From Chitinophagales bacterium (GTDB lineage: Bacteria; Bacteroidota; Bacteroidia; Chitinophagales; Chitinophagaceae): a stretch of DNA of 37,926 bases. The stretch covers positions 1-37,926 of the forward strand of contig JAATGJ010000019.1 in the NCBI GenBank assembly GCA_015654695.1, read 5' to 3'. Below the pieces are notes generated by a model, which saw nothing but the letters and a program-made list of their open reading frames with translations, searched no databases and was not told the DNA's origin. Shown piece after piece: positions 24,106 to 37,399 of this stretch. A program made the translations under genes and the position numbers. How positions within the stretch are numbered: the first letter of the stretch is position 1; every line of letters begins with the position of its first letter.

Positions 24106-24266
24106 AGAATAGAAAGAGGGCATTGACTCATCGGATGCTTTGAAAGACAATGTTGAATAAAAATAAACTACCACCAACAAGTTAGCTGCCACGCTATAGC
24201 GGCGTTCAACTACTTCAAACTTCCCGGCGTTTTCCTTCTAACAAAAAATAGTTCATAAAAACTTGT

Positions 24267-24308
24267 GCAATCAGATAGTTGCATTTATATTTGCAACCAT
24301 GTAGTAGC
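24267..24308 (+). promoter_or_regulatory. Promoter and tandem-dyad operator of ArsR module 1
   Basis: Two 16-bp dyads, GCAATCAGATAGTTGC (24267-24282; outer four bases pair) and GCAACCATGTAGTAGC (24293-24308; imperfect), are separated by a 10-bp spacer. The facing half-sites also form a perfect GTTGCA/TGCAAC palindrome (24278-24297). The -7 element TATATTTG is at 24286-24293. The same 16-10-16 layout precedes the other two ArsR genes. Repressor bound here would cover the -7 element, so autoregulation is likely. Confidence 0.65.
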
Positions 24309-24321
24309 AAATAATATAACA

Positions 24322-24648
24322 ATGGAAACAAGAAGAGACATTTTTCAGGCAATTGCCGATCCAACAAGACGGGCTATTCTTGCATTGATCGCTATACAGG
24401 CAATGACGCCCAATGCATTGGCGGAGCATTTTCACACAAGCAGGCAGGCGGTATCAAAGCATATAAAAATTTTAGCCGAATGCGAATTGGTAAAACAAGA
24501 ACTATCGGGCAGGGAGATTTACTACCAGCTTGAAATTAAAAAAATGAAAGAAATAGATAAATGGTTAGAGCAATTCCGGAAATTATGGGAAAACCGCTTT
24601 AACGAACTAGACAACATATTATCAACAATGAAAAAACAAAAAAAATGA
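24322..24648 (+). CDS. ArsR-family repressor (module 1)
   Basis: A 108-residue winged-helix protein starting [20 protein letters not shown], the N-terminus shared by all three ArsR proteins here. The recognition helix is in [19 protein letters not shown], and the wing [13 protein letters not shown] follows. It lacks the ELCVCDL metal site of classical ArsR/SmtB metal sensors, so it probably senses an organic ligand or acts through its partner. The frame is open from 24265, but ATG 24322 leaves the operator outside the gene. Its stop overlaps the following AHSA1 gene start (ATGA), showing tight coupling. Confidence 0.9.
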
Positions 24649-25142
24649 ACAACTTGCTATTTGATTTCACCGTTGACAAAGCAACAAAAACAGTAACCAT
24701 ACACAGGGAATTCGATGCCGAACTTTCACTGGTATGGGATGCATTTACCAAGGCAGAGATCCTTGACCAATGGGTGGCTCCCAAACCCTGGTCATCTAAA
24801 ACGAAATACCAGGATTTTAAAGTGGGTGGCAAAAGATTTTATGCAATGGTAAGCCCCGAAGGGCAAGAACGTTGGGCAATTCAGGAATACACTTCCATTA
24901 ACCCGAAAACCAATTTCAAAATGTTTAATGCTTTTGCAGACGAAAATGAAAACCCTCAATTGCCGGGTTCTGATTGGGATTACACATTTAGCGAACAAGA
25001 TGGAAAGACAACAGTGCATATCAGTATTTATAATGAATCGTTTGAACGTATGGAGAGAATGCTTGAAATGGGCTTCACAGAAGGATATAAAGCATCAATG
25101 ATCAATTTGGAAAATTTATTGGCGACTTTGTCGAAAAAATGA
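24645..25142 (+). CDS. AHSA1/SRPBCC-domain protein (module 1)
   Basis: A 165-residue single-domain START-like protein of the Aha1-C/activator of Hsp90 ATPase homologue family. Typical: [33 protein letters not shown] at the N-terminus and [22 protein letters not shown] at the C-terminal helix. The fold has a deep hydrophobic pocket for small lipophilic ligands; enzymatic function is not known. It overlaps the ArsR gene by four bases, so it is translationally coupled. The pair is a recurrent ArsR-AHSA1 module, with two more examples in the window. Confidence 0.88.
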
Positions 25143-25211
25143 TTTTCAATTTCAACGGCAGCCAAAATAAATAAAAGAGTAACGAATTAAATAAACTAAA
25201 CAATAAAAATT

Positions 25212-25640
25212 ATGGCACTTATCAATCCTCACGTTAACTTCAATGGAAATGCCGAAGAAGCATTTACTTTTTACAAATCAGTATTTGGCGGAGAGTTTGC
25301 AAAGATTGTTCGTTTCAAAGACCTTGCAAGTTCTGAATTCCCGGTAGCGGAAAAAGAAGAGAATAAAATTATGCATATTGCTTTGCCTGTCGGTAAGAGT
25401 ATGTTGATGGCAAATGATGTTCCGGAAATTATGGGAAGAACAAACGAAAATGAGAACAGAAGTAAAATTGTAATAACAGCGGAAAGTAAAGAAGAGGCAG
25501 ACAAATTATTTAATGGGCTTTCAGCGGGAGGACAAATAGAAGGCCCGATTGGTGATAGTCCCTGGGGTTCATATTTTGGTTGTTTCAGAGACAAATACGG
25601 TATTGAATGGATGGTGGAATTTGACCCCGAAAATAAATAA
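25212..25640 (+). CDS. VOC-superfamily PhnB-like protein
   Basis: A 142-residue protein of the PhnB/3-demethylubiquinone methyltransferase-like VOC group, usually a homodimer of paired beta-alpha-beta-beta-beta units. It begins INPHVNFNGNAEEAFTFYKSVFGGEF and ends GSYFGCFRDKYGIEWMVEFD. VOC proteins include metal-dependent glyoxalases, dioxygenases and resistance proteins; this subgroup has no assigned substrate. It follows the AHSA1 gene by 69 bases and is probably part of the same unit. A decayed near-copy lies about 1 kb downstream (26194). Confidence 0.88.
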   Translation: MALINPHVNFNGNAEEAFTFYKSVFGGEFAKIVRFKDLASSEFPVAEKEENKIMHIALPVGKSMLMANDVPEIMGRTNENENRSKIVITAESKEEADKLFNGLSAGGQIEGPIGDSPWGSYFGCFRDKYGIEWMVEFDPENK

Positions 25641-25707
25641 CAATTGTAACTGGAGAAAAAATGTGATTTGAAAAATCAAACCAGGCAACCCGTATTTTTA
25701 TATTCGT

Positions 25708-26142
25708 ATGAACGTGCAGGAACAAATAAAAGAGTATATAACCAGCCAGCCTGAACCAAAACGCAGTGACATGAAAGCGTTGCACAACATCATTCTGCAA
25801 ATAATGCCAAAATGTAAATTATGGTTCCTGGATGGAAAAGACGAAAAAGGAAAAATTGTTTCTAATCCAAACATCGGATACGGGCTTCAGATCATGAAGC
25901 TTGCCGGTGGAAAAACCAGGGAGTTTTACCAGGTTGGTTTGAGTGCAAACACAACAGGTATCTCTGTCTACATTCTTGGCATTGATGATAAAACATACTT
26001 ACTCAAAACGTACGGGAAAAAACTAGGCAAGGCCAGTGTGACCGGTTATTGTATTAAGTTCAAAACTATAAAAGACATAAACGTTGATATACTTCAAGCA
26101 GCCATACGATATAGGGTTGAGGTTCCGGATGAAAAAGGATGA
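25708..26142 (+). CDS. DUF1801 family protein
   Basis: A 144-residue cytoplasmic protein. It starts MNVQEQIKEYITSQPEPKRSDMKALHNIIL and carries CKLWFLDGKDEKGKIVSNPNIGYG and KTYGKKLGKASVTGYCIKFKTIKDIN, typical of the longer DUF1801 members. The fold is known from YdhG/Fra-type proteins (Fra has been described as an iron chaperone), but the biochemical role of this subgroup is not known. Two other DUF1801-like genes occur in the window (28286 and 33301), an unusual density. Confidence 0.8.
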   Translation: MNVQEQIKEYITSQPEPKRSDMKALHNIILQIMPKCKLWFLDGKDEKGKIVSNPNIGYGLQIMKLAGGKTREFYQVGLSANTTGISVYILGIDDKTYLLKTYGKKLGKASVTGYCIKFKTIKDINVDILQAAIRYRVEVPDEKG

Positions 26143-26193
26143 TCTGGCAAAATGATTAAAAAAATAATTACCTGGAATAAGAATTAAAAAATT

Positions 26194-26436
26194 ACGGCAC
26201 TTTTAAACCCTTACATTTATTTCAATGGAAATGCCCGGGAAGGGTTCATATTTTACAAATCAGTATTTGGCGGAAAGTTCGCAAAAATTATGCATTACAA
26301 AGACGTATCAAGCCCTGAGCATCCGAATATCTCACCATCAACTTTAACGGCACACTACTTCGCTGACAATCATTCGGACTTACAGGCAACGACCCACAAA
26401 ATATCCGCCAGGATAACCGGAGAAAAATTTACGTAG
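26194..26436 (+). pseudogene. Decayed PhnB-like VOC gene copy with start codon lost
   Basis: The frame reads (T)ALLNPYIYFNGNAREGF, then IFYKSVFGGKFAKIMHYKD, closely matching the intact gene at 25212 (ALINPHVNFNGNAEEAF, TFYKSVFGGEFAKIVRFKD). The start ATG has become ACG (26194-26196). Similarity ends near 26325, after which the frame drifts to a TAG at 26434 inside the next operator. A 24-base block (26251-26274) is identical to 25269-25292. The copy has lost its C-terminal half, so it is not functional as a VOC protein. Confidence 0.75.
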
Positions 26437-26474
26437 TTAAATAACTACACATACATTTGTAGCTAAATAGCTAC
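26433..26474 (+). promoter_or_regulatory. Promoter and tandem-dyad operator of ArsR module 2
   Basis: Two near-identical dyads: GTAGTTAAATAACTAC (26433-26448) and GTAGCTAAATAGCTAC (26459-26474). Each has perfect six-base arms around AAAT. They are separated by ten bases. The -7 element TACATTTG (26452-26459) lies between them at the same offset (19 bases) as in module 1. The ATG follows three bases after the second dyad. This is the clearest of the three operators. Confidence 0.8.
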
Positions 26475-26477
26475 ATA

Positions 26478-26798
26478 ATGAATTTAAGACGGGATGTATT
26501 TCAAGCCATAGCCGATCCGACAAGAAGGGGTATACTTCTGTTGGTGGCTTCGCAATCCATGACAGCGGGTGCAATAGCTTCAAACTTTGACACAGCGAGA
26601 CCGACAGTTTCAAAACACCTGCAAATACTCACCGAGTGCGAATTGCTTAAACAAGAGCAAAACGGCAGGGAGATTTCCTATCATACTAATGCAAAAAAAA
26701 TGAAAGAGGTAGCCGACTTTATTGAACCATTCCGCAAAATGTGGGATGACAGGTTTAATAAATTAGAAACCATAATGAGAAAATATAAAAGCCAATAA
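26478..26798 (+). CDS. ArsR-family repressor (module 2)
   Basis: A 106-residue winged-helix protein: [38 protein letters not shown], recognition helix within [19 protein letters not shown], wing [13 protein letters not shown]. The C-terminal [17 protein letters not shown] is the helix shared with the other two paralogues. No metal-binding cysteine motif is present. It probably represses its own promoter through the two dyads just upstream. The stop is one base before the GTG start of its AHSA1 partner. Confidence 0.9.
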
Positions 26799-26799
26799 C

Positions 26800-27267
26800 G
26801 TGGAGCGAAAAACAAAAATCAATGCCGGGGAAGGCAAACAGGATTTAGTGATTACAAGGGAATTTGATCTGCCATTGGAATTACTTTTTAAAGCATATGC
26901 AGAATCCGAAATTGTTGAGCAATGGATGGGAACGAAAGTATTGAAACTTGAAAATAAAAAGCATGGCGGTTACCAATTTGAAACGTCAGATGCTGAAGGA
27001 AATGTGGTGTTTCGGGCCAACGGAGTGGTCCATGAGTTTGTTCCGAACCAGAAAATCATACGGACATTTGAAATGGAGAATACGCCTTTTCCCGTGCAGC
27101 TTGAGTTCCTTGAGTTTGAACAACTCGCTGGCGACAGCAGTAAACTCACTATGCAAATAATATATAAATCAGTCGCAGACAGAGACCAAATGCTGCAGTT
27201 ACCTTTTGCCCAGGGCATAAATATGGCACATAACCGGTTGCAGGACATCGTACGCAAATTAAAATAG
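26800..27267 (+). CDS. AHSA1/SRPBCC-domain protein (module 2)
   Basis: A 155-residue START-like protein using a GTG start one base after the ArsR stop; the next in-frame ATG would remove the first beta-strand. Visible: LVITREFDLPLELLFKAYAESEIVEQWMGTKVL at the N-terminus and MLQLPFAQGINMAHNRLQDIVRKL at the end. It is clearly divergent from the module 1 partner (VAPKPW is absent), so the two probably bind different ligands. Ligand and function unknown. DoxX-like and DUF4256 genes follow with almost no gap. Confidence 0.88.
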   Translation: MERKTKINAGEGKQDLVITREFDLPLELLFKAYAESEIVEQWMGTKVLKLENKKHGGYQFETSDAEGNVVFRANGVVHEFVPNQKIIRTFEMENTPFPVQLEFLEFEQLAGDSSKLTMQIIYKSVADRDQMLQLPFAQGINMAHNRLQDIVRKLK

Positions 27268-27273
27268 CACAGT

Positions 27274-27672
27274 ATGACAAAGAGAAATAAAATTATCTAC
27301 TGGGTTGCTACTATCTGGCTTGCATTAGGAATGTTATCAAGTGGAATAGTACAGTTATTCAAAGTGAAATCGGAAACAGATTTTATTTTACACATGGGCT
27401 ATCCTGCCTATTTTCTGACAATACTGAGTAGTTGGAAAATTTTGGGAGTTGTAACAGTGCTTATTCCTAAATTCCCTTTACTAAAGGAATGGGCTTATGC
27501 GGGCTTTTTCTTTGCTATGTCGGGAGCGGTATTTTCACATATCGCAACGGGTAATTCCGTGAAGGAGATATTTCCCCCGTTGTTATTACTGATCCTGACT
27601 ATGGTGTCGTGGTATTCCAGGCCTGCTGGTAGAAAAATCATCCCGATAAATACCGGGACAATTAACCAATAA
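27274..27672 (+). CDS. DoxX-like membrane protein
   Basis: A 132-residue protein with four predicted TM helices: IIYWVATIWLALGMLSSGIVQLF, YPAYFLTILSSWKILGVVTVLIP, EWAYAGFFFAMSGAVFSHIA and IFPPLLLLILTMVSWY. The pattern GYPAYFLTILSSWKILG is characteristic of the DoxX-like family. Some members are quinol oxidase or respiratory accessory proteins; most have no assigned role. It sits 6 bases after the AHSA1 gene, and its stop (TAA) is directly followed by the ATG of the broken DUF4256 gene, so it is part of the module 2 transcript. Confidence 0.85.
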   Translation: MTKRNKIIYWVATIWLALGMLSSGIVQLFKVKSETDFILHMGYPAYFLTILSSWKILGVVTVLIPKFPLLKEWAYAGFFFAMSGAVFSHIATGNSVKEIFPPLLLLILTMVSWYSRPAGRKIIPINTGTINQ

Positions 27673-27708
27673 ATGAATAGAATGAAAAAGGAATTATCAT
27701 CAAAACAA

Positions 27709-27729
27709 CCTGCCTTGCCGACAGGCAGG
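27709..27729. repeat. 21-bp imperfect palindromic repeat in the DUF4256 frame
   Basis: It adds exactly seven codons (PALPTGR) between the conserved KQ and REELL of DUF4256. The ends CCTGCC and GGCAGG are inverted and the core is TTGCCGACA. It is related to the copy at 20496-20516. The reading frame is kept. Confidence 0.65.
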
Positions 27730-28086
27730 CGGGAAGAACTGCTCAACATATTAAAAGCCCGATTTGAGAAAAACAAGAGCCGCCACAAAGGTCTTGAATG
27801 GGCTAAAGTGCAAGCAAAGCTGGAAGCTAATACCCAAAAATTGTGGTAGCTCAATGAAATGGAAACATCCGGCGGTGAACCGGATGTAGTTGATCATGAT
27901 AAAAAGACGGGCGAATACATTTTTTATGATTGTTCAGCCGAAAGTACTAAAGGCCGCAGAAGTGTTTGTTACGACCACGAAGCGCTGGAGTCAAGGAAAG
28001 AGCATAAACCGGAAAATAGCGCGGTTGAGATGGCTGCTGATATGGGCATTGAACTTTTAACGGAAGAACAATACCGGGAGTTGCAG

Positions 28087-28104
28087 TCCCGCCATTTGGC
28101 GGGA
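28087..28104. repeat. 18-bp perfect palindrome in the DUF4256 frame
   Basis: TCCCGCCA (28087-28094) and TGGCGGGA (28097-28104) are perfect inverted repeats around TT. The extra residues it encodes (about SRHLAG) lie between ELQ and GNFDTKTSSW, which are usually nearly adjacent in DUF4256 proteins. It looks like a second insertion, of a different repeat type. Confidence 0.55.
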
Positions 28105-28285
28105 GGAAATTTCGATACGAAAACTTCGAGCTGGATAAAAACACCTGCTGATATCAGGAAACTCGGTGGTGCCATCTTTGCTGATTGGCGCTATGGTCAT
28201 GTCTTCGTTTACCACAACGGTGCGGAATCTTATTATGCCGCCAGGGGCTTTCGTGGTTCATTAAGGGTCTAACAAATAATATAGT

Positions 28286-28876
28286 ATGACAATGGGTGAA
28301 ATGAATCCTGCCGTTGATTTTTATTTTAGTAAAGCCAGGTGGAAGAAAGAACTGGAGCAATTGAGAACAATCGTTCTTGGCTGCGGGCTCGCCGAAGAAT
28401 TGAAATGGGGTGTTCCTTGTTACACGTTTCAGAAAAGTAACATAGTATTGATACATGTGTTTAAAGAATACTGTGCGCTTTTATTTTTCAAAGGCGCCCT
28501 GTTGAATGATTCTAATGGTATCGTGGTCCGGCAAACGAAGAATGTACAGGCGGCACGCCAGGTCAGGTTCACCAATGTTGGGGAAATTGTTAAAGTAAAA
28601 CCCATCCTGAAAGCCTATATCTATGAAGCTATTGAAGTGCAAAAAGCCGGTTTGAAAGTGAATTTAAAAAAGATTACAGAATTCACAATTCCTGTAGAAT
28701 TTCAAAAAAAATTAGATGAGACGCCTGCCTTGAAAAAAGCTTTTAAATCATTGACACCGGGACGGCAAAGAGGATATATACTGCATTTTTCCGCACCCAA
28801 ACAATCCAAAACACGGGAGTCAAGAGTTGAAAAATGCAGCCGGCAAATTATTAATGGAAAGGGATTAAATGATTAG
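28286..28876 (+). CDS. YdeI/OmpD-associated family protein (DUF1801-like plus C-terminal OmdA domain)
   Basis: A 196-residue cytoplasmic protein with an N-terminal DUF1801-like domain (NPAVDFYFSKARWKKELEQLRTIVL, EELKWGVPCYTFQKSNIVLIH, YCALLFFKGALL). A C-terminal OmdA-type segment (KKLDETPALKKAFKSLTPGRQRGYILHFSAPKQSKTRESR) is typical of YdeI. Family members have been linked to antimicrobial peptide tolerance, but the mechanism is unknown. Three Mets lie near the start; the family usually begins at MNPAVDF, so ATG 28301 is a good alternative. It starts 13 bases after the DUF4256 frame. Confidence 0.82.
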   Translation: MTMGEMNPAVDFYFSKARWKKELEQLRTIVLGCGLAEELKWGVPCYTFQKSNIVLIHVFKEYCALLFFKGALLNDSNGIVVRQTKNVQAARQVRFTNVGEIVKVKPILKAYIYEAIEVQKAGLKVNLKKITEFTIPVEFQKKLDETPALKKAFKSLTPGRQRGYILHFSAPKQSKTRESRVEKCSRQIINGKGLND

Positions 28877-28963
28877 TAGTTATTTCTAATTCTGATTTTG
28901 GTACTTCAAACCTGCGGATAAAACCCATCCGGATAAATAAAAACAAAAACAACCAACAGAAGA

Positions 28964-29764
28964 ATGAAGAAACCGATAGTATTATTTTTTCTATTCACAG
29001 GGTTGGTAGTGATTGCCTGTAAAAACTCATCAGCACAAAAAAATCAGGCGAAGGGTACAATAACCCTTGCTGCAAATGTTTTATTAAAAGACAGTATGAT
29101 CTTATATCAATCGGGTAATTTAATTATTCAAAAAATATCAAACCATGTTTATCAGCATATTTCTTTTTTGAATACAAAAGATTTTGGAAAAGTTGACTGT
29201 AATGGAATGATTGTCGTAAATGATGGCGAAGCAATTATTTTTGATACGCCCGCAGACGATGAAAGCTCCGGGGAATTGATAAACTACCTGTCTAAAGCGC
29301 ATAACTTTAAAATAAAAGGAATCATCCCTACTCATTTTCATGAAGACTGCGTGGGTGGCCTGGAAAAGTTTAATGAAAATGATATTTCCGCCTACGCGTC
29401 CAATAAAACAATAGCATTGCTAAAAGACAAAGGCAGGCTCTTTTCTAAGCCTATACACGGCTTTGACGACAGCCTTGTATTGAATATCGGCGCCAAAAAA
29501 GTTTATATCAACTATTTCGGAGAAGGGCATACAAAAGATAACGTTATTGGTTACTTCCCGGGAGATAAAGTGGTTTTCGGTGGTTGTTTAATTAAAGAAG
29601 CAGGTGCGAAGAAAGGCAACTTACAAGATGCGAATGTAGCCGCATGGTCTGAGACGGTCAGAAGGCTTAAACAACGTTATCCCGGAACTAAAACGGTAAT
29701 TCCCGGGCATGGAAAAAACGGGGGAACTGAATTGTTTGATTATACAATAAAGCTTTTCGAATAA
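28964..29764 (+). CDS. Subclass B1 metallo-beta-lactamase-like lipoprotein
   Basis: A 266-residue MBL-fold protein with the full B1 zinc set: HFHED (His124, His126, Asp128), GEGHTKDN (His189), GGCLIK (Cys208, plus the substrate-binding Lys211) and IPGHG (His249). GNLQDAN near 219-223 matches the conserved B1 Asn loop, and HEDCVGGL resembles the CcrA type. The signal MKKPIVLFFLFTGLVVIAC suggests a lipid anchor at Cys19, as in NDM-type enzymes. Predicted activity is hydrolysis of beta-lactams, possibly carbapenems; this is inferred from residues alone. It ends the run of + strand genes and is followed by the convergent GlxA-type gene. Confidence 0.85.
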   Translation: MKKPIVLFFLFTGLVVIACKNSSAQKNQAKGTITLAANVLLKDSMILYQSGNLIIQKISNHVYQHISFLNTKDFGKVDCNGMIVVNDGEAIIFDTPADDESSGELINYLSKAHNFKIKGIIPTHFHEDCVGGLEKFNENDISAYASNKTIALLKDKGRLFSKPIHGFDDSLVLNIGAKKVYINYFGEGHTKDNVIGYFPGDKVVFGGCLIKEAGAKKGNLQDANVAAWSETVRRLKQRYPGTKTVIPGHGKNGGTELFDYTIKLFE

Positions 29765-29871
29765 GTAAATGGCGTAAAGAGATATATACTTCAATGAGTA
29801 AAAGCAAACCGTGAATCCGCATAAAGAACTTTATAATGTAATTGGTTCCATGTTACAGGAGGCTATTAAAA

Positions 29872-30855
29872 TTATTGCATGACCGGTTCTTTATTATATT
29901 TATTCCTGTACTCCACCGGCGACAAGCCGGTTGTTCTTTTAAATACCGTACGAAAAGCTTTGGTATCAGAGTATCCTACTTCATACATCAGCTCACTTAC
30001 ATTTTTTCTCCCTGTTTCCAGTCCCTTTTTAGCGGCTTCTATTTTTACCCGCTGCATATATTCCACTACTGTATTGGAAGTAGCTTTTTTAAACCTGCGT
30101 TCAAAACTCCGCCTGCTCAGCGCCAGCATGGAGGTCAGTTGCTCTACCGTTATTTTATCATGATAATTCTTTTCAATAAACTCCTGCGCTTTTTTCACCG
30201 CTTCATCTTCATGTACTTTTTGTCCATGAAACATGGTAAAAGGAGACTGGCTGCTACGGTCAATTTCTATCTCGTAATACTTGGAAAAAAGAACGGCCAT
30301 TTCCCGGTCAGTGTATTTTTCCAGCAGGTAGAGCAGCAGGTTCCAGAAAGAATTGGCGCCACCACTTGAATAGATACCCTGTTCATCCGTAATAATCCTG
30401 TCGGAGACCAGGTCTATATCCGGGAACAGTTGCCTGAATTCATTGGCGGCTATCCAGTGAGTAGAACATTTTTTTCCCTTTAATAAACCAGTTGCCGCCA
30501 GCAGGAAAGTACCCACGCAAAGACCGGCTACTTCCGCCCCTTCATGATGCTGATGGATGATCCAGGGAAGAAATCCCTTATTGGTTTCAATGACTTGTTT
30601 CATATCACCATTCACGGCAGGTATAATAACAAGATCTGTTTTTGTAACATCAGCTATACCGGCATCCGGGCATACGGTAAAGAACCGGTCATATACCTGG
30701 GCTTTGTTGGTTAACCCGACCAGTTGCACAGTGAATAAAGCGGGCTTTCCCATACTTATTAAAAATTCATTCGCTTTGGTGAACAGGATAAAAGGCCCTT
30801 CAATACAGGACAGGGCGACTGCACCTGTGGGAACAAGAATAGATATGTGTTTCAT
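29872..30855 (-). CDS. GlxA-family transcription regulator (DJ-1/PfpI domain plus AraC HTH)
   Basis: A 327-residue protein. Residues 1-190 form a DJ-1/PfpI-like domain with AGLCVGTFLLAATGLLKGKKCSTHW at about 110-134 and the IYSSGGANSFWNLLLYLL segment. An AraC/XylS double helix-turn-helix ends the protein: DKITVEQLTSMLALSRRSFERRFKK and YMQRVKIEAAKKGLETGRKNVSELMYEVGYSDTKAFRTVFKRTTGLSPVEYR. Such proteins usually activate nearby genes in response to a small metabolite. It is divergent from the SDR gene across 118 bases, so it may control that gene. Confidence 0.9.
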   Translation of the reverse strand: MKHISILVPTGAVALSCIEGPFILFTKANEFLISMGKPALFTVQLVGLTNKAQVYDRFFTVCPDAGIADVTKTDLVIIPAVNGDMKQVIETNKGFLPWIIHQHHEGAEVAGLCVGTFLLAATGLLKGKKCSTHWIAANEFRQLFPDIDLVSDRIITDEQGIYSSGGANSFWNLLLYLLEKYTDREMAVLFSKYYEIEIDRSSQSPFTMFHGQKVHEDEAVKKAQEFIEKNYHDKITVEQLTSMLALSRRSFERRFKKATSNTVVEYMQRVKIEAAKKGLETGRKNVSELMYEVGYSDTKAFRTVFKRTTGLSPVEYRNKYNKEPVMQ

Positions 30856-30938
30856 GATTCTAAATTATGGAAAACCTTCGTCGCAATCAACCCCTCAGAT
30901 TGCCGTATTTGCACCCCGGCTATTTTGTTTGGTTAGTT

Positions 30939-30946
30939 TAGGTTTG
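30939..30946 (+). promoter_or_regulatory. Candidate -7 element of the SDR gene
   Basis: TAGGTTTG fits the Bacteroidota TAnnTTTG consensus and lies 27 bases before ATG 30974, in the gap between the divergent GlxA-type and SDR genes. No clear -33 TTG was found at the usual spacing, so confidence is low. Confidence 0.35.
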
Positions 30947-30973
30947 TCTTCTTCATATAAAAGGGAAAGGGAC

Positions 30974-31759
30974 ATGATGCTAAAAAATAAAAATGCAGTT
31001 ATCTATGGCGGCGGCGGAGCTATTGGCGGCGCCGTTGCAATGGCTTTTGCCCGGGAGGGAGCAAGCGTTTTTTTGGCTGGTCGCAGTCTTGACACATTAG
31101 AAGCAGTGGCTAAAAAAATTGCTGAGGAAGGTGGTATCGCTGAAACCGCACAGGCAGACGCCCTTAGCAAAGAATCCGTAGAGGCGCATCTCAGTGAGAT
31201 CATAAAAAAAGCCGGGAGGGTTGATATTTCTTTTAATGCAATTTCAATTAATGACACGCAGGGCTCTGCTCTTGTTGAAATGCAACAGGATCAATTCATG
31301 TCACCGGTCGTAAACGCAATGAACACGCATTTTATCACCGCCACCGCAGCAGCACGTTATATGACGAAACAGGGATCAGGAGTTATACTCGCTGTCACCG
31401 CCAATGCTGCCCGTAAACCCCATCTTAATGCAGGTGGATTTGGAGTGGCCTGTGCAGCTATCGAAGGCTTTTGCCGCCAGTTAGCGGTTGAAGAAGGTAA
31501 GCACGGCATCCGGGTGGTTTGTATCCGGTCGGCAGGTTCACCGGATGCTCCCGGTGTAGATGAAGTCTTTAACCTTCATGCAAAAAATGCAGGGATTTCG
31601 AGGGAAGCATTTGAAACTGAGTTTGCAGAAAGAACCATGCTGAAGCGGTTACCCAGGCTTGCAGAAATAGGTAATGCTGCAGTGCTGATAGCATCTGATA
31701 ATGCAAGTGCAATAACCGCAGCTGTAATAAACGTAACATGTGGTGAACTGGCGGATTAG
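30974..31759 (+). CDS. Short-chain dehydrogenase/reductase-like protein with altered active site
   Basis: A 261-residue Rossmann-fold protein. NAVIYGGGGAIGGAVAMAFAREGASVFLAGRS is the cofactor-binding start, and NAISIND and IRVVCIRSAGSPDAPG are SDR-like. At the place of the catalytic YxxxK the sequence reads GGFGVACAAIEGF: Tyr is Phe and Lys is Cys. The usual Ser position (ILAVTANAA) is also not clear. It may bind NAD(P) without classical SDR catalysis, or catalyse differently. The frame is open from 30557, but that part is antisense to the GlxA-type gene. ATG 30974 follows a purine-rich GGGAAAGGG; ATG 30977 is equally possible. Confidence 0.82.
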   Translation: MMLKNKNAVIYGGGGAIGGAVAMAFAREGASVFLAGRSLDTLEAVAKKIAEEGGIAETAQADALSKESVEAHLSEIIKKAGRVDISFNAISINDTQGSALVEMQQDQFMSPVVNAMNTHFITATAAARYMTKQGSGVILAVTANAARKPHLNAGGFGVACAAIEGFCRQLAVEEGKHGIRVVCIRSAGSPDAPGVDEVFNLHAKNAGISREAFETEFAERTMLKRLPRLAEIGNAAVLIASDNASAITAAVINVTCGELAD

Positions 31760-31779
31760 TAATCATAAAGTAAGTACCA

Positions 31780-32007
31780 ATGCCGGTGATTGAAGTGTTT
31801 AAAACAAATGTTACAGACAGGGAAAAAGCAAAGCGGCTGATTGAAGAGATACATAAAACCTTTGCGGGTTATAAAGCCAATTTTGACCTGGATGATTGTG
31901 ATAAAGTGCTTCGGATAGTGAGCAGCGGGGGCGATATAGAAAATGCCTGTTTTATTGACTGGTTAAAAAAACTGGGATGTAATGCTGAATCCTTACCCGA
32001 TAATTAA
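31780..32007 (+). CDS. Small conserved protein, function unknown
   Basis: A 75-residue protein: MPVIEVFKTNVTDREKAKRLIEEIHKTF, then NFDLDDCDKVLRIVSSGGDIENACFIDWLKKLG. The predicted beta-alpha-beta-beta-alpha pattern resembles a small ferredoxin-like fold such as heavy-metal-associated domains, but no CxxC is present. I do not recognise it beyond a type common in Bacteroidota accessory regions. It follows the SDR gene by 20 bases on the same strand and may be cotranscribed. Confidence 0.65.
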   Translation: MPVIEVFKTNVTDREKAKRLIEEIHKTFAGYKANFDLDDCDKVLRIVSSGGDIENACFIDWLKKLGCNAESLPDN

Positions 32008-32069
32008 AAAGAGTTACCATTAGAATTATGCAATGAAATAAAACTTCATTATAAACAATAGTACAGTCT

Positions 32070-32489
32070 ATGACACAGATCAATGCTTATTTAAATTTCA
32101 ATGGCAATTGCCGTGATGCCATGAACTTTTATAAAGAATGCCTTGGAGGGGAACTGGCCCTGCAGGCAGTGGAAGGTTCACCTATTGAAGCCCAGTGTCC
32201 ACCAGCTATAAAAAACCAGGTATTACATGCTTCATTAATGAAGGACGCCATATTACTGATGGGCTCCGATATGGTAGGACCCGATGGATTTATCAAAGGA
32301 AATACGATGTCGCTTTCACTGAATTGCAGCAGCGAAGAAGAAATTAATTCTTTCTTTTCCACTCTTTCCGCTGGCGGCAAAATAATACACCCGTTACGGG
32401 TAGAATTCTGGGGAGCCATATTTGGCGTATTTACAGATAAATTCGGAGTAAGATGGATGCTTAACTATGATAAAAATGCCAAACAATAA
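32070..32489 (+). CDS. VOC-superfamily PhnB-like protein
   Basis: A 139-residue protein of the PhnB VOC group: INAYLNFNGNCRDAMNFYKECLGGELALQ at the N-terminus, VLHASLMKDAILLMGSDM in the middle and WGAIFGVFTDKFGVRWMLNYD at the end. It is only distantly similar to the copy at 25212, so it is an older paralogue rather than a recent duplicate. Substrate unknown. The end overlaps the next small gene by 14-23 bases. Confidence 0.88.
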   Translation: MTQINAYLNFNGNCRDAMNFYKECLGGELALQAVEGSPIEAQCPPAIKNQVLHASLMKDAILLMGSDMVGPDGFIKGNTMSLSLNCSSEEEINSFFSTLSAGGKIIHPLRVEFWGAIFGVFTDKFGVRWMLNYDKNAKQ

Positions 32490-32706
32490 AACTAAGGAAA
32501 AGAATAGCGGCTTGCCGGTAAAATTAGCCCGGCCTGCCCGGCGGGCTTTAGCCCATGCAGGTATAAAAACGCTGAAACAACTATCAACATTCAGGGAAAA
32601 AGATATAACGGGGCTTCATCGTATTGCCAATCATGCAATGGTCATCAAACAGGCATTGATAGAAAAAGGGATGTCATTTTCGAAGGATACAAAACTCAAA
32701 AAATAA
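32467..32706 (+). CDS. Small RNA polymerase alpha-CTD/helix-hairpin-helix-like protein
   Basis: A 79-residue basic protein. LPVKLARPARRALAHAGIKTLKQLSTFREKDITGLHRIANHAMVIKQALIEKGMSF is a helix-hairpin-helix domain like that at the RNA polymerase alpha C-terminus, expected to bind DNA nonspecifically. It has no enzymatic residue. Start is ATG 32467 or 32476; both overlap the end of the VOC gene (32489), implying coupled translation. Role unknown. Confidence 0.7.
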   Translation: MIKMPNNKTKEKNSGLPVKLARPARRALAHAGIKTLKQLSTFREKDITGLHRIANHAMVIKQALIEKGMSFSKDTKLKK

Positions 32707-32739
32707 TTTAGCTTTAGCGGTAAACTAATATCAACCAAT

Positions 32740-33273
32740 ATGAACATCTTAATTACTATTTTAATTGTGCTGGGAAGTTTAATAGCCTTGCTGCTGATCA
32801 TTGCTTTACTTACTAAAAAGGAATTTAGTCTTGAAAAGCAAGTCGTCATTAATAAATCTAAACAGGAAGTATTTAACTACCTGAAGCTGATCAGGAACCA
32901 GGAGCATTACAGTGTGTGGGTGATGAAAGATCCCCATATAAAAATAATTTATACGGGAACAGATGGTACGGTAGGATTTACATCATCCTGGGAAAGTAAT
33001 GATAAGAATGTTGGTATCGGTGAGCAGGAAATAAAAAAGATAACTGAGGGAGAAAGTATGGAAGTGGTGATACGGTTCAAAAAACCTTTTGAAGCGACCA
33101 ATTATGCACTTACAACAGTAAGCGCTGCCGGGAATGACCAAACAAAAGTAACTAACCTGTTTTATGGCAAATCAAAATTCCCGATGAACATTATGAACCT
33201 GGTGATGGATAAAGTGGTAGGAAAGGATATGCAGCAAAACCTGGTGAATATGAAGTACAACCTCGAAAAATAG
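32740..33273 (+). CDS. Membrane-anchored SRPBCC (polyketide cyclase-like) protein
   Basis: A 177-residue protein with one N-terminal TM helix (ILITILIVLGSLIALLLIIALL, 3-24) followed by a START-like SRPBCC domain. Visible: FSLEKQVVINKSKQEVFNYLKLIRNQEHYSVWV and GTVGFTSSWESNDKNVGIGEQEI. The last helix is MNIMNLVMDKVVGKDMQQNLVNMK. The fold binds hydrophobic ligands; no function is assigned. It is unlike the three AHSA1 proteins in having a membrane anchor. It follows the HHH gene by 33 bases on the same strand. Confidence 0.82.
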   Translation: MNILITILIVLGSLIALLLIIALLTKKEFSLEKQVVINKSKQEVFNYLKLIRNQEHYSVWVMKDPHIKIIYTGTDGTVGFTSSWESNDKNVGIGEQEIKKITEGESMEVVIRFKKPFEATNYALTTVSAAGNDQTKVTNLFYGKSKFPMNIMNLVMDKVVGKDMQQNLVNMKYNLEK

Positions 33274-33300
33274 CAAGTTTTTTTATTTCAAAACAGTAGT

Positions 33301-33687
33301 ATGGCAATAACTGGTAAAAATATCCAGGAGGGAAGTATAGATAAATATATTGCAGGTTTTCCCAAACACATCCAGGAATTACTGCAAAAACTCAGGGCCA
33401 CTATCAGTAAGGCGGCGCCCGGAGCGGAAGAAACGATTAATTACGCCATACCTACTTTTATTTTAAAAGGCAACCTCGTCCATTTTGCCGCTTTCAAAAA
33501 TCATATCGGATTTTATCCGGCACCATCAGGGATTGAAGCATTCAAAAAAGAATTATCCGTGTATGAAGGAGCAAAGGGGTCAATAAAATTTCCCATTGAA
33601 CAGCCTCTTCCGTTGGCCCTCATAACCAAAATCGTAAAGTTCAGGGTGAAGGAAAATTTGGAACGGTCAAAAGCAAAAAAGAAATGA
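33301..33687 (+). CDS. DUF1801 family protein (YdhG/Fra-like)
   Basis: A 128-residue protein of the short DUF1801 type: IQEGSIDKYIAGFPKHIQELLQKLRATISKAAPGAEETINYAIPTF, then HFAAFKNHIGFYPAPSGIEAF and SIKFPIEQPLPLALITKIVKFR. YdhG/Fra of Bacillus has been described as an iron chaperone with this fold; whether this copy binds iron is not shown. It lies 27 bases behind the SRPBCC gene. Third DUF1801-type gene of the window. Confidence 0.85.
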   Translation: MAITGKNIQEGSIDKYIAGFPKHIQELLQKLRATISKAAPGAEETINYAIPTFILKGNLVHFAAFKNHIGFYPAPSGIEAFKKELSVYEGAKGSIKFPIEQPLPLALITKIVKFRVKENLERSKAKKK

Positions 33688-33773
33688 CAACCAAACTAAA
33701 GTGTAAACTAAAAGTAATGACAGAGAATACGCGTTATGAAGACAATCAATTAATAATAATTAAATCTTAGTGT

Positions 33774-34220
33774 ATGCAAAGAATTAATTTTTCCATCAGC
33801 ATCAATGCGCCTAAAGAAAAGGTATGGCAGGTTCTTTGGAACGATTCTTCTTACAGGCAATGGACAAGCGCTTTTAGTGAAGGCTCTTACGTGGTCACTG
33901 ACAATTGGAAAGAAGGAACTAAGATTTTATTTCTTTCACCCGGGGGAAGTGGTATGGTAAGTACTGTAGCCGCTAACCGGGCAAATGAATACATGTCCTT
34001 TAAACATCTTGGTGAAGTAAAGGATGGCGTAGAGGATACTACGAGTGAAAAAATAAAAGAGTGGGCTGGTTCTACCGAAAATTATACGCTTACAGAAACA
34101 GGCGGTGTCACGGAGTTGAGTATTGATATGGATATTACAGATGAGTTTAAAGATATGTTTATGGATATGTGGCCTAAAGCGTTGAAACTTGTAAAAGATT
34201 TATCAGAAAATAAAAACTAA
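33774..34220 (+). CDS. SRPBCC-domain protein
   Basis: A 148-residue single-domain START-like protein: INFSISINAPKEKVWQVLWNDSSYRQWTSAFSEGSY at the N-terminus, GTKILFLSPGGSGMVSTVAANRANEYMSFKHLG in the middle, and MFMDMWPKALKLVKDLSE as the C-terminal helix. No partner regulator adjoins it. Ligand and role unknown. Its stop is five bases before the next VOC gene, suggesting one transcript. Confidence 0.85.
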   Translation: MQRINFSISINAPKEKVWQVLWNDSSYRQWTSAFSEGSYVVTDNWKEGTKILFLSPGGSGMVSTVAANRANEYMSFKHLGEVKDGVEDTTSEKIKEWAGSTENYTLTETGGVTELSIDMDITDEFKDMFMDMWPKALKLVKDLSENKN

Positions 34221-34225
34221 AGATA

Positions 34226-34708
34226 ATGCCGGCAATTAATCAAAAACAAAAGATCACCCCATTCCTGTGGTTCGATGGTAAAGCGGAAGAAGCTATAAAA
34301 CTTTATACTTCTGTTTTTAAAAACTCCAGGATCGTAAACATTTCTTATTGGGGAGAAGGAAGCCCTTTCCCCAAAGACCAGGTAATGAACTGCACTTTTG
34401 AATTGGAGGGACAACGGTTTTATGCTTTTGATGCCGGCCCTATGTTCAAATTCACGGAAGCCATTTCATTGTATGTAAACTGCGATACCCAGGAGGAAAT
34501 AGATCATTTCTGGAATAGGCTTACTGCCGATGGCGGGCAGGAAAGTATGTGCGGCTGGTTGAAAGATAAATTTGGTTTGTCATGGCAGATTGTACCTCCT
34601 GTACTGGGCGAACTGCTGGGCGATAAGGACAGGGCAAAAGCAGGAAGAGTAATGCTGGCTATGATGAAAATGAAAAAAATAATTATTGAAGACCTGGTGA
34701 AGGCGTAG
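34226..34708 (+). CDS. VOC-superfamily protein (3-demethylubiquinone-9 3-methyltransferase-like PhnB)
   Basis: A 160-residue protein: KITPFLWFDGKAEEAIKLYTSVFKNSRIVNISYWGEGSP, then VMNCTFELEGQRFYAFDAGP and MCGWLKDKFGLSWQIVPPVLGELLGDKDRAKAGRVMLAMMKMKK. The C-terminal part is the hallmark of this VOC subgroup. The databases' methyltransferase name is historical; no SAM-binding motif exists here. Actual substrate unknown. It continues the closely spaced + strand run, 32 bases before the AlkD-like gene. Confidence 0.88.
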   Translation: MPAINQKQKITPFLWFDGKAEEAIKLYTSVFKNSRIVNISYWGEGSPFPKDQVMNCTFELEGQRFYAFDAGPMFKFTEAISLYVNCDTQEEIDHFWNRLTADGGQESMCGWLKDKFGLSWQIVPPVLGELLGDKDRAKAGRVMLAMMKMKKIIIEDLVKA

Positions 34709-34740
34709 TCATCTAAACAATTAGAAAGGTAACATTTTAA

Positions 34741-35538
34741 ATGGCTAAAAAGATAACAATAAAGAAATCACCCAACCCTGGCATAACGAAAGAGGCTGCT
34801 TCAGGTAAAAAGCTTACAGCAAAACAGTTTATTGAACGATTAAAAGCCCTGCAATCGGATGAAGAACTGAAAAAGATCCAACGCTACTTTAAATCCGGCG
34901 AGGGACAGTATGGTGAAGGTGATAAGTTCATGGGAGTAAAAATGGGACAGTTATTTGCACTCGCAATTGAGTTTGGTGAAATGCCTGTTGCTGAAATTGA
35001 AAAATTGCTGGAAAGCCCCATCCACGAAGCGAGAGCCGGGGCCGTCAGCATTATGGATAAAGCATCCCGCAACAAAAAAATCACAGGGAGCCGCAGAAAA
35101 GAATTTTATGATCTGTATATGAGGCGGCACGACAGGATCAACAACTGGGACCTGGTTGACCTGGGTTGTTTAAATATGACCGGAAGTTACCTGTTTGATA
35201 AACCACGTACTATATTATATAAACTGGCAAAATCTAAAAACCTGTGGGAGCGGCGTACTGCTATTCTCAGCACCTGCTATTTTATCCGCCAGGGTGATCT
35301 TGCTGATGCATTTAAGATCGCTGAGATACTACTTAATGACAAAGAGGATTTAGTTCATAAGGCAACCGGCTGGATGCTTCGTTTTGCCGGGGATAAAGAC
35401 CCTCAGAAGCTAAAGGATTTTTTAGATAAATATGCAGCGACGATACCCCGCACATTCTTACGGTATTCCATTGAGAAACTTGATAAGAAGAAACGCGAAT
35501 ATTATATGGGCATGGCAAAAGAGATAAATAATGTTTAG
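34741..35538 (+). CDS. AlkD-like DNA alkylation repair glycosylase
   Basis: A 265-residue all-helical HEAT-like repeat protein. After a basic N-terminus (1-25) comes LTAKQFIERLKALQSDEELKKIQRYF. NNWDLVDLG carries Trp136 and Asp140, matching the catalytic Trp/Asp spacing of AlkD; LWERRTAILSTCYFIRQG follows with the conserved Arg. AlkD enzymes remove positively charged alkylated bases such as 7-methylguanine and 3-methyladenine. The stop codon TAG lies inside the 14-base direct repeat of the adjacent insertion sequence, so the coding region remains intact. Confidence 0.88.
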   Translation: MAKKITIKKSPNPGITKEAASGKKLTAKQFIERLKALQSDEELKKIQRYFKSGEGQYGEGDKFMGVKMGQLFALAIEFGEMPVAEIEKLLESPIHEARAGAVSIMDKASRNKKITGSRRKEFYDLYMRRHDRINNWDLVDLGCLNMTGSYLFDKPRTILYKLAKSKNLWERRTAILSTCYFIRQGDLADAFKIAEILLNDKEDLVHKATGWMLRFAGDKDPQKLKDFLDKYAATIPRTFLRYSIEKLDKKKREYYMGMAKEINNV

Positions 35539-36859
35539 TAACCAGTAGTGTCTCGTTTAAACTAAAAGATTTTCAATTGATTATATAAAAGTTCTTTGAC
35601 ATCTTGATTGTTTTTTTTCTGAAGTAGTTGATTTATGGGAGTTTTATCTAAAAGCGATGTTCCTAAAATCTGTAAAATTTCATACGTGGAATAGGTTGAT
35701 TTAATCTGCTGTTTAATTATAGCAACCAATGTGTAGGTAATGACTGCTATATACACTTGTGTTTTTACAGCGTTTTGGGTTCTTCCCCAAAAGGTGGTGA
35801 TTTTCAGATGTTGCTTTATCCATTTAAAGAATAATTCAACTTTCCACCGGTGTTTGTAAAGGGCTGCAATTTCTTCGGGCTTCAAGTCCATATTATTGGT
35901 TAAAAAAATAAAGGTTCTGTTTTGCTCTTCATCATGGAATTTTACCCGCCTGATTTTTTCCGGGTATCCCTGCAAAGAATAGAATCCTTTCAGGTGACCG
36001 GTTTGGTCGCAGCGAACACCAGTGCTTTTGTTAACCGGAGAAGAGTATGACCGTTCAAATTGCAAATTGTTTTTTGCACGGATAACAAAGAATGATTTTG
36101 ATTGATGAATCATGTATAGTCTTTCAAAATCAAGATAGCCCCTGTCGAAAATGTAAAAGCTGCCGGGCTCGTAGGTTAAATTGTCCATCGCATTGACATC
36201 ATGTACTGATGCCGCTGAAACATGCACGAATACTGGTATGGAAGTGCGAACGTTATATTGTGTATGCAGTTTGACAGCACCTTTTGCTCTTCGAAAAGTA
36301 GCCCAGCAAAAAACGTTTAAACACAAATCAATGGTAGTAGAATCAAAAGCATACACAGCGTTGGAAAAGGAAAAGCCCGTTTCATCATCAGGCAAACAAT
36401 CTTTTCTTGCTATTCCAATCAGGTGATAAGCATAGTCCTGATAAATGTGCCAGTCTCTTTTTTCATTGGTTTTAGCGAGATTAGCTTTTGAAATACCTTT
36501 TCCAAACCCTAAATGATAAAACTTAGCAGGATGCGCATTGATGGTTAATACTAAATCACTAAGGCTATCCCTGTTGCTCAGTTGTCCAAACATCATACAC
36601 ATCATCTGGTTCCAACAGCTAAAATGCCTGATTTTATAATTGCCCCTATAGCTGGCTACTATCCGGTCAAAAATCCTTTGTGGCAAAAAGGAACTGATTT
36701 GAGTAAATACATATTTTCCCTGGTTCATGGCTCAAAGCAAGCCAAAAATGTCAGAGATGCGTTCAAATCGTCACCGCCGTAAAATCGCTTCAAATGCAGG
36801 CCAATCAAGAATTTCAAAGAACTTTATTTATTCTAAATGAGACGTTAATGTTTAGTAAC
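35529..36859. mobile_element. IS4-family insertion sequence with inverted repeats and 14-bp direct repeat
   Basis: GTCTCGTTTAAACTAAA (35550-35566) and the reverse complement of 36827-36843 (GTCTCATTTAGAATAAA) agree at 14 of 17 positions and bracket one transposase gene. TAATGTTTAGTAAC occurs directly at 35529-35542 and 36846-36859, as expected for a target duplication of IS4-type length. Seven bases separate the left inverted repeat from its direct repeat but only two on the right, so the exact element ends are uncertain. It inserted at the stop codon of the AlkD-like gene and separated it from the VOC gene at 36877. Confidence 0.85.
35562..36728 (-). CDS. IS4-family DDE transposase
   Basis: A 388-residue, apparently intact transposase. 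DDE residues: AFDSTTIDL (Asp129), IFDRGYLDF (Asp195) and KHRWKVELFFKWIKQHL with Glu298. The last is the YREK signature (Tyr291, Arg294, Glu298, Lys305) of the IS4 family. The N-terminus (FTQISSFLPQRIFDRIVASY) is the usual IS4-type domain. The stop codon lies within the left inverted repeat (35550-35566). The element may still be able to move. Confidence 0.92.
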   Translation of the reverse strand: MNQGKYVFTQISSFLPQRIFDRIVASYRGNYKIRHFSCWNQMMCMMFGQLSNRDSLSDLVLTINAHPAKFYHLGFGKGISKANLAKTNEKRDWHIYQDYAYHLIGIARKDCLPDDETGFSFSNAVYAFDSTTIDLCLNVFCWATFRRAKGAVKLHTQYNVRTSIPVFVHVSAASVHDVNAMDNLTYEPGSFYIFDRGYLDFERLYMIHQSKSFFVIRAKNNLQFERSYSSPVNKSTGVRCDQTGHLKGFYSLQGYPEKIRRVKFHDEEQNRTFIFLTNNMDLKPEEIAALYKHRWKVELFFKWIKQHLKITTFWGRTQNAVKTQVYIAVITYTLVAIIKQQIKSTYSTYEILQILGTSLLDKTPINQLLQKKNNQDVKELLYNQLKIF

Positions 36860-36876
36860 AACAAAATAATTAAAAA

Positions 36877-37290
36877 ATGGCAACAAAAATTTTCGTCAAC
36901 CTGCCGGTAAAAGACCTGAAAAGATCAATGGATTTTTTTACTCACCTTGGGTTCTCATTCAATACCCAGTTTACAGATGACAAAGCAGCTTGTCTTGTTA
37001 TCAATGATGGCAGCATCTACGCTATGCTTCTCACAGAAGCGATGTTTAAAACATTTACCAAAAAGGAAATTGCTGACGCCACCAGGACAACCGAAGTACT
37101 GATCGCCATAGATGCAGAAAGTAAAGAGAAGGTTGAAGAAATGGTGAACAAAGCAGTGGAAGCAGGCGGCTCCATCTATGCAGAGCCTGCCGATCATGGC
37201 TGGATGTACCAGCATAGTTTCGCAGATCCTGATGGGCACCAGTGGGAAGTACTGTATATGGATGAAAGTAAACTACCCCAGCCGTCATAA
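36877..37290 (+). CDS. VOC-superfamily glyoxalase/bleomycin-resistance-like protein
   Basis: A 137-residue protein: KIFVNLPVKDLKRSMDFFTHLGFSFNTQFTDDKAACLVI, then GWMYQHSFADPDGHQWEVLYMD. This is the single-domain VOC type common in Bacteroidota and distinct from the PhnB-like members in the window. QHSFADPDGHQWE contains the usual metal-ligand positions of the second half. Substrate unknown. It was probably next to the AlkD-like gene before the IS inserted; the sequence after the right direct repeat leads straight to its start. Confidence 0.88.
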   Translation: MATKIFVNLPVKDLKRSMDFFTHLGFSFNTQFTDDKAACLVINDGSIYAMLLTEAMFKTFTKKEIADATRTTEVLIAIDAESKEKVEEMVNKAVEAGGSIYAEPADHGWMYQHSFADPDGHQWEVLYMDESKLPQPS

Positions 37291-37357
37291 TTTCCCCGTT
37301 AATTACAAGTCAGAATAAATAGCTGGCTACAGGAAAAATTTTCCTGGAATATTTTGC

Positions 37358-37399
37358 GTAACCGAAAGGTTTCCTATATTCGTGTAACCAAACGGTTAC
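37358..37399 (+). promoter_or_regulatory. Promoter and tandem-dyad operator of ArsR module 3
   Basis: Dyads GTAACCGAAAGGTTTC (37358-37373; five of six arm pairs) and GTAACCAAACGGTTAC (37384-37399; perfect six-base arms) are separated by ten bases. A -7-like TATATTCG lies at 37375-37382, two bases further left relative to the dyads than in modules 1 and 2. The start codon follows 17 bases after the second dyad. Confidence 0.75.

Follow-up and report, generated by a model that had tools for sequence, protein, structure and literature searches.

The DNA analysed here, called the window, is a stretch of 37,926 nucleotides from a Chitinophagales bacterium (assembly GCA_015654695.1, contig JAATGJ010000019.1, forward strand). 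It carries three genes for ArsR-family regulators, each preceded by a 42-base-pair (bp) block of two 16-bp dyads around a 10-bp spacer and each followed by a gene for an AHSA1/SRPBCC or AHSA1-like protein. We relate the sequence of these blocks to the recognition helix of the adjacent ArsR protein. Residues 41, 42, 43 and 46 are numbered throughout after the first of the three proteins (ArsR 1), and bases 1-5 are the positions of an operator half-site. The features are the following.

24263-24265, plus strand: TTG, possible -33 element upstream of block 1
24267-24308, plus strand: operator block 1, dyads 24267-24282 and 24293-24308, spacer 24283-24292; sequence from 24267 GCAATCAGATAGTTGC-ATTTATATTT-GCAACCATGTAGTAGC; half-sites GCAAT, GCAAC, GCAAC, GCTAC
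24286-24293, plus strand: -7 promoter element TATATTTG, block 1 spacer, offset 19
24322-24648, plus strand: ArsR 1 (HTH_20/HTH_5), recognition helix TSRQAVSKH, codons 24436-24462
24645-25142, plus strand: AHSA1/SRPBCC protein after ArsR 1, PF08327
26433-26474, plus strand: operator block 2, both dyads with 6/6 arm pairs; sequence from 26433 GTAGTTAAATAACTAC-ACATACATTT-GTAGCTAAATAGCTAC; half-sites GTAGT, GTAGT, GTAGC, GTAGC
26452-26459, plus strand: -7 promoter element TACATTTG, block 2 spacer, offset 19
26478-26798, plus strand: ArsR 2, recognition helix TARPTVSKH, codons 26592-26618
26800-27267, plus strand: AHSA1/SRPBCC protein after ArsR 2, PF08327
27274-27672: DoxX-like gene, next after the AHSA1 gene of ArsR 2
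37353-37356, plus strand: TTTG, possible -33 element upstream of block 3
37358-37399, plus strand: operator block 3; sequence from 37358 GTAACCGAAAGGTTTC-CTATATTCGT-GTAACCAAACGGTTAC; half-sites GTAAC, GAAAC, GTAAC, GTAAC
37375-37382, plus strand: -7 promoter element TATATTCG, block 3 spacer, offset 17
37417-37773, plus strand: ArsR 3, recognition helix VSRPAISKH, codons 37525-37551
37757-37926, plus strand: start of the protein after ArsR 3, AHSA1-like by eye from its translation, cut by the contig end

An earlier note on this DNA had described the three blocks, and its coordinates and 16-10-16 layout proved exact; the offsets it gave for the -7 element (19, 19 and 17) were confirmed from the sequence, and it had quoted the recognition helices correctly. 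When each 100-bp upstream region was subjected to 2,000 dinucleotide shuffles, the block score was reached 5, 0 and 0 times for blocks 1, 2 and 3, respectively. When the whole window was searched for pairs of 16-bp dyads with a 10-bp spacer at a score of at least 18, exactly three matches came back, namely the three blocks; among five shuffled windows one had a single match and four had none, and in a second five the best score was 18 in two. Blocks 2 and 3, with a score of 22 each, exceed chance unaided; block 1, with a score of 18 and 4/6 arm pairs per dyad, is convincing only jointly with relatives of the same helix class.

Tandem dyads in Bacteroidota promoters

Relatives were collected from Bacteroidota as best matches rather than as a random draw, giving 239 loci (238 after one duplicate was removed) in 148 genomes. 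The layout of the window blocks is the usual one in this phylum: dyad pairs with a period of 26 bp and a score of at least 18, counted with no promoter term, were found in 170 of the 238 loci, against 0.3 in shuffled sequences. Among the periods from 17 to 44 that were scanned, 24, 25, 26 and 28 gave 10, 10, 170 and 17 loci (the same locus may count at more than one period) and shuffled sequences at most 0.3; a lesser excess was seen at periods 40 to 44 (8, 3, 10, 6 and 5 of the 238 loci). A -7 box of the form TAnnTT lay inside the spacer in 165 of the 170 period-26 loci, compared with 31% when the spacer letters were shuffled, and in 160 of the 170 the TA stood at block offset 19.

When spacers of 8-12 bp were allowed and a bonus was given for the -7 box, a score of 20 was reached by 215 of the 238 loci, with a null rate of 1.5%. 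The spacer was 10 bp long in 184 of these, 8 in 12, 9 in 10 and 12 in 9, and in 199 of the 215 a TTG ended one base ahead of dyad 1. Bacteroidota promoters have a -33 element TTTG and a -7 element TAnnTTTG. The layout is that of such a promoter, with dyad 1 between -33 and -7 and dyad 2 just past -7. The earlier note had read the three blocks as one shared promoter architecture, a reading that would fall if orthologous promoters were without tandem dyads; the relatives support it, both by the 170 loci at exactly 26 bp and by the 215 that pass the score including the bonus. Its description of the two dyads as in phase has to be corrected: 26 bp correspond to about 2.5 helical turns, which puts the centres of the two dyads on almost opposite sides of the helix, and spacers of 8, 9 and 12 bp occur as well.

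Outside Bacteroidota, the 16-10-16 layout occurs on a Metabacillus plasmid (L258, helix MGRTAVSKH), where the dyad GACACCAATTAGTGTC is present twice with a period of exactly 26 bp, within about 75 bp upstream of the ArsR gene. At six other loci outside Bacteroidota (L263, L264, L281, L298, L312 and L403) two dyads were merely 16-17 bp apart, which is a different tandem layout of sites that are of the same type.

Recognition helix and operator half-site

The half-sites sort with the residues of the recognition helix by a simple rule. The partners are residue 41 and base 1 (R with G, Q with A, L with T), residue 42 and base 2 (P with T, Q with C or A), residue 43 and base 4 (A with A, T with G), and residue 46 and base 5 (K or R with C, T or A; Q or L with G). 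In the window, where the residues at 42 and 43 give the words QA, PT and PA, the operator words are GCAA, GTAG and GTAA. The rule gives G, C/A, -, A, C/T/A for R41 Q42 A43 K46 of ArsR 1; G, T, -, G, C/T/A for R41 P42 T43 K46 of ArsR 2; and G, T, -, A, C/T/A for R, P, A and K of ArsR 3, where base 2 fits in three of the four half-sites.

Counts in Bacteroidota were made on four half-sites from each of the 215 loci. Q42 was accompanied at base 2 by C in 359, A in 95, G in 2 and T in 0 half-sites (n = 456), and P42 by T in 371/388. At base 4, A was found with A43 in 442/444 and G with T43 in 373/380; S43 went with A in 25 and with G in 11. Base 5 was C or T in 773/784 half-sites with K46 and G in 35/36 with Q or L at 46. 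R41 was present in all 238 loci, base 1 being G in 850/860 half-sites, and base 3 was A in 847/860. Over 108 alignment columns, mutual information with base 2 was highest for column 42 and with base 4 for column 43. The P/Q by T/A square is occupied at every corner: QA in 102, PT in 77, PA in 24 and QT in 20 loci (K or R at 46 required, S counted as A), with the words GCAA, GTAG, GTAA and GCAG, respectively, of which the window has the first three. These helix-sorted words support an operator that differs with the recognition helix, as the earlier note had supposed.

Because the residues switched too rarely within Bacteroidota, other phyla were examined. The first outside set combined 8 loci on plasmids, including one of Bacteroidota, with 80 that a genome scan had supplied. 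A Streptomyces protein with the helix ISRPAISRH had the operator GTAACCCATGGGTTAC, a Sinorhizobium helix MSLPAVSKH was found with TTAACC and an archaeal helix VSLSAISQH with TTAAGC. When the best dyad was picked blind, 70 of 87 loci had at least 5/6 pairs. The Bacteroidota rule for residues 42, 43 and 46 was right for 305 of 396 bases (permuted mean 252.8, maximum 286), residue 46 contributing most. This set exposed the letters of residue 41 (R with G in 22/26, Q with A in 56/76 and L with T in 19/28 half-sites), which were fitted on its own rows.

The four-position rule was then fixed in writing before a second and a third test, each with 2,000 permutations. The second comprised 51 new loci, which remained of 59 after the removal of 8 at places already used; a usable dyad was present in 47 of the 51. 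The dyad lists were viewed before counting, and the rule was left unchanged. The rule was right for 266 of 322 bases (permuted mean 187.3, maximum 222), a value unreached in the permutations, and each position held alone (61/78, 73/88, 48/68 and 84/88 for 41, 42, 43 and 46). For the third test, two phyla were sampled with 80 genomes each, that of a Polaromonas and that of an acidobacterial genome; 18/80 and 38/80, respectively, had a match, and 60 loci were drawn from them. Here scoring preceded any view of the dyads; 56 loci were kept, 46 with a dyad, and 233 of 298 bases were right (permuted mean 156.3, maximum 194, again unreached), with 57/70, 65/84, 45/68 and 66/76 for the four columns. 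In the 20 perfect dyads of this test, 114 of 124 bases were right. In addition, 20 paralogues of two genomes, whose dyads had been viewed beforehand, gave 85/110 (permuted mean 50.1, maximum 75). Loci with no dyad were set aside (17/87, 4/51, 10/56 and 2/20 in the first, second, third and paralogue sets), and the dyad pick is crude in genomes rich in G and C.

Relatedness, which permutation of the helices ignores, was allowed for by contrasts on a FastTree tree of 332 rows, built with the helix excluded and read on all branches, supported or not. The mean number of independent pairs in the expected direction was 6.6 for R at 41, 5.6 for Q versus L at 41, 8.1 for 42, 6.5 for 43 and 14.3 for 46; none ran in the opposite direction, and 0.5-1.7 showed no difference. 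The corresponding sign p values were about 0.016 (41), 0.008 (42), 0.031 (43) and 0.0001 (46). None of the cross-position controls fell below p 0.375, the strongest lean being that of 41 with base 5 (3.8 vs 0.8).

Some helix combinations were new. Two perfect dyads seen after the rule was fixed, LSQPTISKH with ATAGCC and MTQQAVSKH with ACAACC, fit it; in the set used for the residue-41 letters, both half-sites read TTAGG for VALPTIVQH, and one of the two read ATAGG for LSQPTISQH. We also noticed that H at position 46 (e.g. KPSISHH) goes with A at base 5 (TTAGA) at L461, L462, L465 and L472, where L461 and L462 have a common helix and dyad; L013 in the window's genome is an H46 case by eye. H46 with A at base 5 is perhaps a further letter of the code.

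Among 68 Bacteroidota genomes with at least two loci read (some of their paralogues being left out), 17 of 127 paralogue pairs had the same word, compared with 38.6 expected under word shuffling and a minimum of 20 in 5,000 shuffles. The earlier note had suggested that specificity split to avoid crosstalk. The direction of the count agrees with this, since paralogues share words less often than by chance; judged from sequence, however, the deficit fits selection against crosstalk and old once-per-genome orthologue groups equally well. Recent local duplication as the origin of the three systems was rejected: since the same helix classes recur throughout Bacteroidota, the split between helices is not local to the window. 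A fourth close ArsR of the window's genome (L012, G000:C132:12697-13008, minus strand) has the helix SSRQAVSKH, the same word QA as ArsR 1 and a 16-10-16 operator similar to that of ArsR 1, and its reading frame contains an in-frame TAG. Barring an assembly error at the TAG, the one close copy whose operator word would coincide with another's seems to be defective.

Single genomes elsewhere hold many such proteins. G530, G534 and G536 gave 15, 14 and 15 matches to the ArsR group at E <= 1e-10, and several of those read differ in their half-sites. In a Sphingomonas genome, 13 of 14 matches were read; seven gave ATTAG, TTAAG, GTAAG, TGAAC, GCAAC, ATAGC and ATAAC, and the remaining ones another TTAAG, TTATC or no clear site.

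Proposed mechanism and alternative explanations

The explanation that we regard as very probable is one of autorepressing ArsR-AHSA1 operons with a tandem-dyad promoter block and a four-residue code. Each ArsR would repress its own ArsR-AHSA1 operon through the promoter dyads, as the promoter overlap and the analogy with the Mycobacterium tuberculosis protein Rv2034 suggest. One dimer would bind each 16-bp dyad and insert one recognition helix per half-site. In Bacteroidota the dyads flank the -7 box, one lying between -33 and -7 and the other over the likely transcription start, and dimers bound on nearly opposite faces of the helix may block the promoter. The two dimers may bind cooperatively, as the earlier note had suggested, although some PA-class promoters have a single visible dyad. 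The first turn of helix alpha4 would determine specificity: residue 41 is predicted to read base 1, residue 42 base 2, residue 43 base 4 and residue 46 base 5, base 3 being mostly A. A joint change of these few residues and of the operator would then make paralogous switches separate. What the sequences themselves show is the dyads with their spacing, the overlap with the promoter, the covariation of helix and operator, and successful prediction beyond Bacteroidota.

Several results weigh against this explanation. Within Bacteroidota, residues 42, 43 and 46 changed only 5, 2 and 5 times by parsimony, and independent pairs on supported branches number 2, 1 and 1, which is too few for a decision. 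Columns that mark clades show almost as strong a correlation. Column 30 for base 2 and columns 103 and 31 for base 4 come near the top in mutual information, and for base 5 the top column is 3, not 46, where K or R stands in 205 of 215 loci. In the first outside set, column 42 alone was not significant (92/120, permuted 90.0, reached in 506/2,000), because nearly all rows have P and the column is uninformative there. Column 43 was the weakest in both later tests, its counts being reached by 5/2,000 permutations in the second and 30/2,000 in the third; it was not significant in the 17 perfect dyads of the second test (16/22, 206/2,000) or in the paralogue set (14/22, 713/2,000). There are also plain exceptions: the helix RPAVAKH with GAAACC (L325, L326 and L332), S43 paired with A or with G depending on the group, helices of the QPG, QPQ, QPN and QPV types with other bases at 3 and 4, and the staphylococcal SdpR-family protein L255, which has Q41 (helix MSQASVSQH) and the site TTAAGT with T at base 1, although Q41 goes mostly with A. 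L254 and L256 showed no clear fit to the code. Finally, 23 of the 238 Bacteroidota loci missed the tandem score, including PA-class members with a single visible dyad (L196, L202 and L207).

The rarity of switches and the three competing columns (30, 31 and 103) would be expected if helix and operator had merely been inherited together in old clades, and the named residues did not read bases at all. We consider this improbable: the tree contrasts all ran in the predicted direction with no significant cross-position control, the four new helix combinations given above fit, and in NolR of Sinorhizobium the residue Gln56, according to the available extract of PMC8960804, contacts the very base that the code assigns to it. 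The single-dyad promoters bear on another point, namely whether one dyad is the operator proper and the second a weaker auxiliary site or a tuner of promoter strength, with no occlusion by two dimers. Many single dyads in other phyla agree with this, as does the footprint of Rv2034, which has one dyad in the part of PMC3338718 available; the conservation of the second dyad in Bacteroidota, kept at 24-28 bp in 215/238 loci under the promoter-bonus score and at exactly 26 bp in 170/238 with no bonus, points the other way, and we hold this possibility to be rather doubtful. That the blocks are sites of another factor or leader RNA hairpins, and not sites of the downstream ArsR, seems highly improbable. 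Dyads close to start codons can indeed fold as RNA, but each base of the block sequence tracks the helix of the neighbouring ArsR, a hairpin would be indifferent to which bases pair in it, and the likely transcript does not include dyad 1, which precedes the -7 box.

A broader form of the four-residue reading is probable: four residues and four bases would make up a compact, transferable code, from which the operator of an uncharacterised ArsR-AHSA1 regulator could largely be predicted and by which genomes may keep as many as about 15 paralogues apart, with a fixed frame in Bacteroidota that places the -7 box between dyads on opposite faces. The group is widespread, being present in most sampled genomes of the window's family and with up to 14-15 matches per genome elsewhere. 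A working code from protein sequence to predicted operator would make regulons, inducers and crosstalk directly testable. It also indicates which few mutations, occurring jointly, could let duplicated switches diverge, and suggests a natural set of mutually distinct repressor-operator pairs.

Protein family and comparison with known systems

All three proteins scored above the cut-off of 55 for the ArsR/SmtB profile NF033788 (75.2, 71.2 and 69.2 bits for ArsR 1-3) and above the cut-offs of PF01022 and PF12840. An AlphaFold model of ArsR 2 (predicted local distance difference test score, pLDDT, 92.7) has a helix at residues 41-53 followed by two strands, alpha4, the recognition helix, beginning at residue 41; in the model, ArsR 2 has a winged helix-turn-helix fold with alpha4 as its recognition helix. 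Compared with the PDB, its top nine matches were titled ArsR-like or related transcriptional regulators, and NolR ranked 11. Relatives were found at E <= 1e-12 in 111 of 147 genomes of the family and at E <= 1e-25 in 96 of 395 genomes of the phylum. With an AHSA1 profile derived from the two AHSA1 proteins after ArsR 1 and 2 and extended in one further round on these Bacteroidota loci, a match within 1 kb downstream was found at 226 of the 237 Bacteroidota loci with enough sequence and at 92 of 137 loci outside the phylum (the 137 include 8 places counted twice).

Elsewhere in the window, a remnant of a VOC/glyoxalase-like gene (26190-26430), which by eye resembles the intact gene at 25212-25640, reaches operator block 2. 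Between ArsR systems 2 and 3 lies a minus-strand frame of 388 amino acids (35562-36728) that by eye is like an insertion-sequence transposase.

No operator code for ArsR proteins was found among the open-licence papers listed, judged by title and the opening of the abstract, which is weak evidence of novelty. Studies of the LacI, MerR and IclR families (PMC4052901, PMC5045206 and PMC8222616) analysed factors and binding motifs together, as far as their available extracts tell, in families other than ArsR. Ranked by E-value among the NCBIfam profiles, that of the SdpR family autorepressors (NF033789) came first or second for each of the three window proteins, yet their scores of 72.6, 79.5 and 62.7 bits all lie below its curated cut-off of 100. 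The partner of SdpR is SdpI, whereas AHSA1 proteins stand beside the window ArsRs.

NolR (ArsR/SmtB; PDB 4omy/4omz/4on0) belongs to the same fold class and has its recognition helix in the same register. In the PDB chain GLSQSALSQHL, residues Q56, S57, A58 and Q61 align with code positions 41, 42, 43 and 46. Its motif is given as (A/T)TTAG-N9-A(T/A), with Gln56 contacting A or T, in the extract of PMC8960804, and the motif is quoted likewise in that of PMC12445080. In the first outside set, Q41 preferred A (T second), S42 T (11/12), A43 A and Q46 G, which together give (A/T)T-AG, in agreement with the NolR consensus (A/T)TTAG. NolR, from an alphaproteobacterium, differs from the window proteins: it regulates symbiosis genes, its site is degenerate, and the consensus quoted for it describes one site rather than a pair with a period of 26 bp.

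The polyketide_cyc2 domain has an SRPBCC-type fold. Rv2034 is an ArsR-like autorepressor whose neighbour Rv2035 has such a domain, and its footprint protects CCGTAAGT-CTAA-ACTTACGG, with a 16-bp core GTAAGT-CTAA-ACTTAC around a 4-bp centre (available text of PMC3338718). Rv2034 resembles the window ArsRs in its autorepression, which is predicted for the latter, in its 16-bp dyad and in its SRPBCC-type neighbour, and is unlike them in having one dyad only. A relative from Mycobacterium colombiense with the helix VSRPAVSQH, 81% identical to the Rv2034 sequence used here, has the operator GTAAGTCTAGACTTAC. The published operator of NolR fits the code, and so does that of Rv2034 with its recognition helix word, which we take to be P, A, Q.

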